In this document: piece after piece, positions 30,747 through 32,410 of the stretch
Position numbering within the stretch: the first letter of the stretch is position 1
How the letters are laid out: each line of letters begins with the position of its first letter
Source: Halobacteriales archaeon QH_7_66_36
GTDB lineage: Archaea; Halobacteriota; Halobacteria; Halobacteriales; Haloarculaceae
NCBI GenBank assembly: GCA_003021175.1
Contig: PXQV01000003.1
Span: forward strand, 89,816 to 153,815
DNA length: 64,000 nt
Reading direction: 5' to 3'
The notes under the pieces: model-generated
Databases searched by the model: none
The model's input: the letters and a program-made list of their open reading frames with translations, nothing else
Told to the model about the DNA's origin: nothing
Translations under genes and position numbers: made by a program

Positions 30747-30968
30747 CTCCGCGCTGCTTGACTCGCGCGCCTTCGCAGTGCACAACCGGTGAACTACCCC
30801 ACCTTACCGCTCGCTTGACCGCTCGCGCTTGAGGGTGGGGCTTCCTGCTTCCACGACGCGCTTTGCAGACACCGAGTCGGTGTCCGTAGGGAGCGCAGTC
30901 TCCACAGGCGGTGATTCGGAGTGTCCCACTCCTACATCTCCGAGGCCGCGAGAAAGAATGTTCCACGC

Positions 30969-31016
30969 CGTCGCAAACGCTTCGCGTTTGCTGCCCGTCA
31001 GACTGCGTCTGACGAC
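30969..31016 (-). repeat. Insert A: 48-bp in-frame paired-hairpin insertion in tnpB
   Basis: Two perfect hairpins GCAAACGC-TTC-GCGTTTGC (30973-30991) and CGTCAGAC-TGC-GTCTGACG (30996-31014); encodes VVRRSLTGSKREAFAT between DRDANA and AWNIL. Confidence 0.8.
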
Positions 31017-31642
31017 CGCGTTCGCGTCCCTGTCCGCCTCAAACCCGCAGGCAGGACAGGAGTGTTCGCGGACCCACAACGGCTTGTCCGTCGAGACGCC
31101 GCAGACCGCGCACTCTTTGCTCGTCCCTCTCGGTTGACCGCCACGAAATGCGTTCCTTCGCGCTCACACTTGTATTCGAGCAACGAGAGGAACATCCGCC
31201 ACGCGGCAGACGCGGTGTTGCGGCTGTTCGACGGCGACTCTATCATCCCCTTGACGTTCAGGTCTTCGACCGCCACGAGGTCGTACTCCCGAGCGTAGTA
31301 GTTCGAGAGCTTATCCAGGAAGTCGCGGCGCTTGCGTCGGAGGTCGGCGTGACACTCCGCGACTCGCCGCCGTTGCGTCTCGTAGTTGCTCGATCCGTGC
31401 TGTTTGCGCGAGAGTTTCCGTTGCTCGCGCTCCAAGCGTTCCCGTTCGTCGGACAGGTCGAGCGACCTGACTGCCGTGCCGTCGGTGTCGTGGGCGTACG
31501 TGAGAATCCCCACGTCGATACCGACGCACTTCTCAGGGTTTTCGGGTGGCTCAGGAGGTCCGCGGTCCATCTCGACGCCGAAGGTGGCGAACCACTCGCC
31601 CGTCGGTTCCTTCTTGACCGTGACCTGTTTGAGCGTGGCGTC

Positions 31643-31699
31643 GTCCTCAGAAATCGGAGATTTCTGATGGGCTGCATAAGAGCTGTCGCTCTTATGAAC
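31643..31699 (-). repeat. Insert B: 57-bp in-frame paired-hairpin insertion in tnpB
   Basis: Two perfect hairpins TCAGAAATC-GGA-GATTTCTGA (31647-31667) and CATAAGAGC-TGTC-GCTCTTATG (31675-31696); encodes VHKSDSSYAAHQKSPISED between IPD and DATLKQV. Confidence 0.8.
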
Positions 31700-31792
31700 G
31701 TCGGGGATGGGTCGGTGGAGCCGTATCGGGATATCCGCGAGTTTCGAGAGGGACAGGACAGTCTGCCCGCCCTTCTTGTCGAGCTTGAAGCC

Positions 31793-31850
31793 ATCGCCAG
31801 AAATCGCAGATTTCTGGCTGCCAACCAGAAGCCGTCGGCTTCTGGTGACC
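31793..31850 (-). repeat. Insert C: about 58-bp paired-hairpin insertion in tnpB
   Basis: Two perfect hairpins GCCAGAAATC-GCA-GATTTCTGGC (31796-31818) and ACCAGAAGCC-GTC-GGCTTCTGGT (31824-31846), between ..TYSQS and GFKLDKKGGQTV. Confidence 0.75.
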
Positions 31851-32103
31851 GGACTGACTGTAGGTCACGGTCTGGAGAACCTTTGAGTACACGTCAGAGA
31901 GGTCGTCCCACCACTTCTTGAGGTCGGGGAGTTCCGACCGTAGCGTGGTCATGGACGGCAGTTCACCGTGTTCGTCTTGATACTCGTTGAGGCGGTAGCG
32001 TGTGTGGTTGTACAGTTGCCGACAAATATCGCGGTGGCGGTCCAATGCCTCGCGGTGGGCGTCGGATGGCTCAAGGCGATACTTGTAGGCGTAATACATG
32101 GCG

Positions 32104-32223
32104 CTACTCGCGTTCTTCGATGAGTTCGTCCAACTGCTCGCGGATAAACGACGAAAGATTTAGATGGTGCTGTTCAATCCACTCGTGTTGGTCCTCCCGA
32201 ATAGTGATTGTCTTTCGTTTCAC
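32104..32223 (-). CDS. Small ribbon-helix-helix-like protein upstream of tnpB
   Basis: GTG start; MKRKTITIREDQHEWIEQHHLNLSSFIREQLDELIEERE (39 aa). Confidence 0.7.
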   Translation of the reverse strand: MKRKTITIREDQHEWIEQHHLNLSSFIREQLDELIEERE

Positions 32224-32410
32224 TACGATGCACGCTATACGCGATACACGCATTACTTCTTCGATGAACCGTGGGCCTGTGGCCCGAACAAGGAATATAT
32301 AGAAACTGTGCGGCGCTGTATCTCCTCCATGCTCGCTTCCTTCGGCGCTACTTAATGCGGGGGAATTAGCGCCTCGATACAGCTAAAAGCGTGCCACGCG
32401 AAGCGAGCGT

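Follow-up and report, generated by a model that had tools for sequence, protein, structure and literature searches.

How does a single transposon gene come to be interrupted at three places by segments of the same architecture? The window analysed here is a 64,000-nucleotide stretch of the genome of Halobacteriales archaeon QH_7_66_36, and a first-pass annotation, made from its letters alone, had described three paired-hairpin inserts in a minus-strand tnpB, at points where TnpB homologues would read straight through. This tnpB, a pseudogene of an IS200/IS605-type element, occupies 30804..32099 on the minus strand (start at 32099), and upstream of it on the same strand lies a small ORF of 49 amino acids (32104..32253) whose sequence and position suggest a ribbon-helix-helix-like function. 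Alignment to uninterrupted tnpB homologues from related genomes set the borders of the inserts, which were clean against the empty sites, and all three segments were found where they had been reported. Insert A (30968..31015, minus strand) is 48 nt long, follows DRDANA of the RuvC-III motif and adds 16 codons with the frame kept; it reads CGTCAGAC-gca-GTCTGACG, a GGCA linker, then GCAAACGC-gaa-GCGTTTGC. Insert B (31644..31700, 57 nt) adds 19 codons in frame and lies on the plus strand, opposite to tnpB, in the element orientation TCC ... AACG, and insert C (31791..31848, minus strand, 58 nt) breaks the frame, so that the exact borders bear out the earlier assignment of A and B as frame-keeping and C as frame-shifting. 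Two further sites are empty in the window: a left-end site (TACAGCG/CCGCAC, minus strand, 32308..32320; the slash marks the insertion point), where the element is present in other IS copies, and site D (TCCGAATCACCG/CCTGTGGA, minus strand, 30901..30920). An Rfam scan of the window returned zero families at gathering score.

The possibility that all three segments are ancestral in close homologues did not hold: insert B was present in 0 of the 18 aligned homologues, A was missing from every one in which its site was covered, and C or a counterpart was found in only two, the second copy of the same genome and a copy at locus L065. That second tnpB (contig C1, 24126-24832) has C and an empty B site; the C site of L065 holds a 52-nt element with different stems, and loci L170 and L237 carry a 58-nt copy there. 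Besides insert C, the window tnpB has a 105-bp deletion near 31870 (VLQTV/TYSQS) and a 1-nt deletion near 31133. It is a pseudogene, and because it is dead, frame retention by its own inserts proves nothing.

Further copies were abundant in the same genome, where the architecture might instead have been confined to this gene. In a 461-kb sample, a scan for pairs (perfect stem of at least 8, loop of 3-5 nt and gap of at most 14 nt) found 33, whereas three Markov-shuffled versions gave 0, 0 and 1, and RGAAATCNNNGATTTCY had 16 genomic occurrences against none for its reversed control; chance does not explain these numbers. The paired hairpins differed from single ones in their loops, which were 3 nt long in 55 of 63 cases (shuffled DNA, 121 of 285), and the triloops were closed by C-G in 48 of 55 (48 of 121) and of the GNA/TNC type in 33 of 55 (14 of 121). 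Members of the family are 48-60 nt long and consist of two perfect 8-10 bp hairpins with 3-nt C-G-closed loops, a linker of 4-8 nt and CGTCC...AACG ends, with stems that mostly begin TC or CC and loop centres 22-30 nt apart within a pair; some copies form arrays of at least four hairpins. The oriented consensus is NCG/TCC, a first hairpin of YCAGAAATC or CAGAACGC, a linker of TGGGCTG or TGTGCGA, the second hairpin and (C)AACG. CGTC, whose CG is partly target, stood within 7 nt of hairpin 1 in 80 of 94 copies, and CGTT or CGTC on the other strand stood at hairpin 2 in the same number. Covariation within insert B was modest, with two pairs showing double changes. At one locus (L119:1500-1730), eight short-loop hairpins with differing stems follow one another, separated by linkers of 5-7 nt. 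The d(C-GNA-G) hairpin is exceptionally stable as DNA, not as RNA, and the frequency of such loops is therefore suggestive of a single-stranded DNA stage.

Loop sequence also bears on whether the hairpins arose where they now lie, through template switching of the polymerase at replication forks. Loop triplets were seen inverted between otherwise matching hairpins (TGC/GCA at site A, between locus L074 and the window's insert A; GAA/TTC between loci L082 and L035), as expected under template switching or cruciform inversion, and the near-perfect stems fit such an origin as well. However, the linker, end tags and stem sequence are conserved across genera, which makes origin in place impossible, although template switching may still maintain the palindromes; as an account of the inserts we consider templated insertion highly improbable.

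The immediate flanks were equally regular. Of 55 distinct flanks, 51 had CG directly before the element on its left side, and the remaining four had TG or CA, as expected from decayed CpG. The left-flank dinucleotide matched that at the right end, as CG/CG in 73 of 77 copies and as GG/GG at sites A and C, and is either duplicated or a recognition core. Such matching ends are what a site-specific recombinase of the IS607 serine type, acting on a 2-bp GG or CG core in place of a Y1 enzyme, would leave, but hairpin pairs are a hallmark of single-stranded DNA substrates, and we regard this enzyme as decidedly unlikely.

A haloarchaeal search had been suggested for the architecture. A structure model based on seven copies aligned without gaps found the family order-wide: of the 121 genomes in the window's family, 112 carried the element, representing 21 of 22 genera, and across the order it was recovered from 43 of the 45 genomes sampled. 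Per-genome counts are lower bounds, as scoring was limited to the top candidates. Beyond the order, the model matched in 5 of ∼204 other genomes of the phylum; these five matches (G143, G161, G171, G178 of family f24 and G286 of family f39) had weaker scores. Two consensus elements matched 46 and 51 plasmid records, and the genera tallied or listed among these were all haloarchaeal; phage records gave one partial match, probably due to chance. The family is thus dispersed and order-wide, with precise borders, and copies are also found between genes and within unrelated host genes. One apparently conserved intergenic placement, near AAAAACG...GAAAAAGG, was rejected as an orthologous site because the neighbours differ, which instead indicates a larger composite repeat. 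This repeat is intergenic, has the hairpin pair in its middle and A/T-run flanks, and follows different genes in several genera (L103, L104, L106, L107, L112-L114, L117, L151, L165, L166, L172 and L181); perhaps these copies are bidirectional terminators.

Are copies elsewhere carried by genes that remain open? The B site was filled in 12 other genomes, with the same length, and 10 of these 12 have a full-length TnpB ORF (431-454 aa) with the 19-codon peptide in frame (V-H-K/E-S-D-S-S-C/R-A-A-H-Q-K-...). Named carriers include Natrarchaeobius chitinivorans AArcht7 and Haloferax sp. Q22, and additional full-length TnpBs with B were found in a Halovenus MAG and on a plasmid of Salinigranum marinum (WP_318571040.1), the latter adjoining an annotated tnpA. 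The A site was filled in 15 other genomes. Lengths at this site were 48 nt (5 genomes), 51 nt (6) and 52 nt (5); the frame was kept in 11 of 16, the 52-nt forms being disruptive and the 51-nt form being the 52-nt form less one loop base. Both A and B lie in one intact 449-aa ORF at locus L214. Site C, with 58 or 52 nt, had the frame broken in every case, and all C-bearing tnpBs are broken. At site D, in the C-terminal tail of TnpB, 14 of 14 occupied tnpB copies, counted among loci selected on other grounds, had 57 or 60 nt, all multiples of three and in frame. Descent or recombination of the IS can account for many same-site inserts in tnpB, so that neither the copies nor their frames count as independent observations. 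More distant TnpB families also seem to bear the element in or beside the C-terminal tail (L174, L175, L171, L121, L195, L094 and L164). As read from the ORFs, some element copies sit in frame within otherwise intact genes and would be translated with them. The many copies, the clean borders and the in-frame A, B and D inserts in full-length TnpB ORFs all support the earlier suggestion of a small palindromic element that can be translated. That three inserts share one tnpB also stands, but the sites are not private to it, as the same ones are filled in other tnpBs, where the inserts may have been inherited, recombined or acquired recurrently.

Copies in other genes, which the first-pass annotation had proposed looking for, were found in frame in two host genes. 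One encodes a conserved acidic HHH-domain protein of genus g43, in which two genomes (G268 and G504) have VHESQSDSLANQNA(S/K)RSGDADG in frame, each at a different place, and three orthologues are empty at both. A full-length YjjX-type NTPase_I-T (inosine/xanthosine triphosphatase; Pfam E=1.2e-44) of genome G273 carries a 20-codon in-frame insert that is missing from the solved YjjX homologue 1u5w. An orc1/cdc6 gene on a Halorientalis plasmid (H117) was rejected as a further case, because the element, next to an IS605 that borders the gene, extends only into the annotated start.

Length was considered in two subfamilies. Among 48 loci sampled for subfamily 1, 37 had an element of 56 nt, occasionally within a broken tnpB; in frame-keeping genes the length was instead 57 nt (site B, by means of a 4-nt loop, and the HHH protein) or 60 nt (the NTPase, by means of a longer stem). 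The contrast is clear, although p-values for it are indicative only because subfamily-1 copies share descent. Subfamily-2 elements are 57 nt long nearly everywhere, so that their retention of the frame is uninformative about selection. Gene-borne copies would persist mainly where changes of 1-4 nt in loop or stem give them a length that keeps the frame, and where the added peptide lies in a loop or tail that tolerates it; copies that break the frame would survive in pseudogenes and between genes.

One explanation for the recurrence of the same sites is that the element is immobile today, with a few old insertions into IS605 carried about by the IS and by hairpin recombination and the intergenic copies left as debris of IS movement. 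Sites A, B, C and D and the left end do recur in tnpBs of many genera. At loci L218 and L220, fusion of a left-end copy with copy B has removed the 5′ part of tnpB, which indicates that the repeats of the element act as recombination sites. On the TnpB tree, label B requires 7 changes, only 2 of them forced, and labels A and D require 3 and 5; together with the fusions, these changes indicate that same-site copies are partly inherited and partly recombined or re-inserted. Immobility does not, however, account readily for the copies in unrelated host genes and intergenic places, for the different stem sequences that one site can hold, or for a pair of orthologous tnpBs that differ by a clean insert. 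The latter two genes, from genomes of one genus (G330 and G396), share their host flanks on either side and are 96.7% identical over 3 kb, counting the gap, and over ∼1 kb of tnpB spanning the site the sole difference is a 51-bp in-frame insert A in G396, flanked by a CGG repeat. The insert may have been gained in one genome or precisely lost from the other, or the difference may stem from gene conversion. We regard present-day immobility as unlikely, and infer mobility of the element from its dispersal, its precise borders and this orthologous pair, all read from genome sequences.

We conclude that the inserts probably represent a non-autonomous haloarchaeal mobile element, made of two outward-tagged hairpins with C-G-closed triloops and a short linker, that lies beside CG or GG. 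The mechanism we favour, with less confidence and at somewhat short of an even chance, is transposition of single-stranded DNA in trans. In this scheme the hairpins would fold in the single-stranded element and be recognised by an enzyme encoded elsewhere, most likely the Y1 transposase of IS200/IS605, whose elements often house hairpin pairs. The hairpins also recombine among themselves, by which inserts spread and are deleted between tnpB copies. Element count and Y1 tnpA count per genome were weakly correlated (Spearman 0.35, p=7e-5, 121 genomes), and a Y1 tnpA was recognised in 77 of the 121 genomes. Counting against mobilisation by Y1, 14 genomes with at least 10 elements had no recognisable Y1 tnpA. 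In Archaea, TnpA of the IS200 type only is reported, and the TnpA-REP type is not (PMC6006769). In the window's genome, a hairpin pair apparently lies near the start of the only Y1 tnpA found (L085:1793-1880; G000:C10), and an array of four hairpins lies ∼1.2 kb from it. The fuller proposal, of an order-wide element that is still moving, persists in genes by evolving lengths compatible with the frame (changes of 1-4 nt in loop and stem), travels as single-stranded DNA through d(C-GNA-G) triloops by an enzyme other than the known REP transposases and has TnpB as its main shelter and vehicle, is tentative, and we would put it a little below evens.

In-frame palindromic elements have hitherto been largely bacterial (Rickettsia and relatives), and this archaeal counterpart is abundant; in the literature searched, whose coverage leaves out most subscription journals, we found no description of such elements in Archaea. 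Intact peptide-bearing TnpBs and culturable carriers (Haloferax, Natrarchaeobius and Salinigranum) make the movement of tiny repeats testable, together with functional gain of a peptide and selection on DNA pairing versus protein frame. TnpB is an RNA-guided nuclease and the ancestor of Cas12, and the inserts form a natural series of in-frame TnpB insertions. For annotation, insertions of 16-20 aa in haloarchaeal proteins may be repeats.

Among known haloarchaeal elements, the PATEs of Haloquadratum (PMC3119063) are likewise short, non-coding, palindromic and IS605-related, and include terminal-only forms of 52 bp. The hairpins studied here could accordingly be the two ends of an IS605 element joined together, which would fit their number of two and the absence of a long target duplication. 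PATE palindromes derive from IS605 ends, whereas the host IS has another hairpin, an imperfect one, at its ends (GCCCC...GGGG, with a TTCAC end), from which the element pair differs at loci L084 and L085, and pairs occur inside or beside these ends as separate insertions. A derivation from IS ends is therefore very unlikely. By description, SMR-A of Haloquadratum walsbyi resembles our non-autonomous element in its host group, in its preference for IS605-type elements and PATEs and in having no reported target duplication, but it is ∼110 bp long with prominent inverted terminal repeats, and no in-frame use was seen in the portion of the source available (PMC3119063). SMR-A inserts into near-terminal palindromes of IS605 and PATEs; of the copies studied here, some adjoin the left-end hairpin and others apparently lie within a GCCCG/CCGTGAACGGCGGG palindrome, putatively an IS end.

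Bacterial systems offer closer parallels. REP and REPIN sequences moved by TnpA-REP are also foot-tagged hairpins or pairs in many copies, but are bacterial and have a GTAG-type guide, unlike the haloarchaeal element (PMC6006769). The larger Rickettsia palindromic elements (∼150 bp; PMC10969869) are likewise translated within unrelated genes as an added peptide and are set apart, by description, by about threefold greater length and by belonging to another domain of life; the haloarchaeal element shares their trait of lying in frame in intact, unrelated ORFs (TnpB, NTPase_I-T and the HHH protein). The likeness to Rickettsia that the first-pass annotation had drawn as analogy only proved closer than that, since CGTC-tagged REP dimers include RPE-4 and RPE-6 of Rickettsia, occur in frame in ORFs and encode 20-30 aa (PMC3733652), and both families are CGTC-tagged hairpin dimers. 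Both have 8-9 bp stems, a CGTC foot tag and outward-tagged pairs, and both are dispersed, found in frame and without a known transposase. In contrast, CGTC-REP loops are 4-5 nt long, against 3 nt in most of the haloarchaeal hairpins; CGTC-REP has a CCA tail and complementary A/T at stem positions 1-2, both of which the haloarchaeal element lacks; and the latter has a conserved linker, other stem-foot bases and archaeal hosts, whereas CGTC-REP is listed in five bacterial phyla (PMC3733652). Because its loop length, tail and stem foot fall outside the CGTC-REP definition, the haloarchaeal element is best regarded as one that works like CGTC-REP, not as a member of that family.
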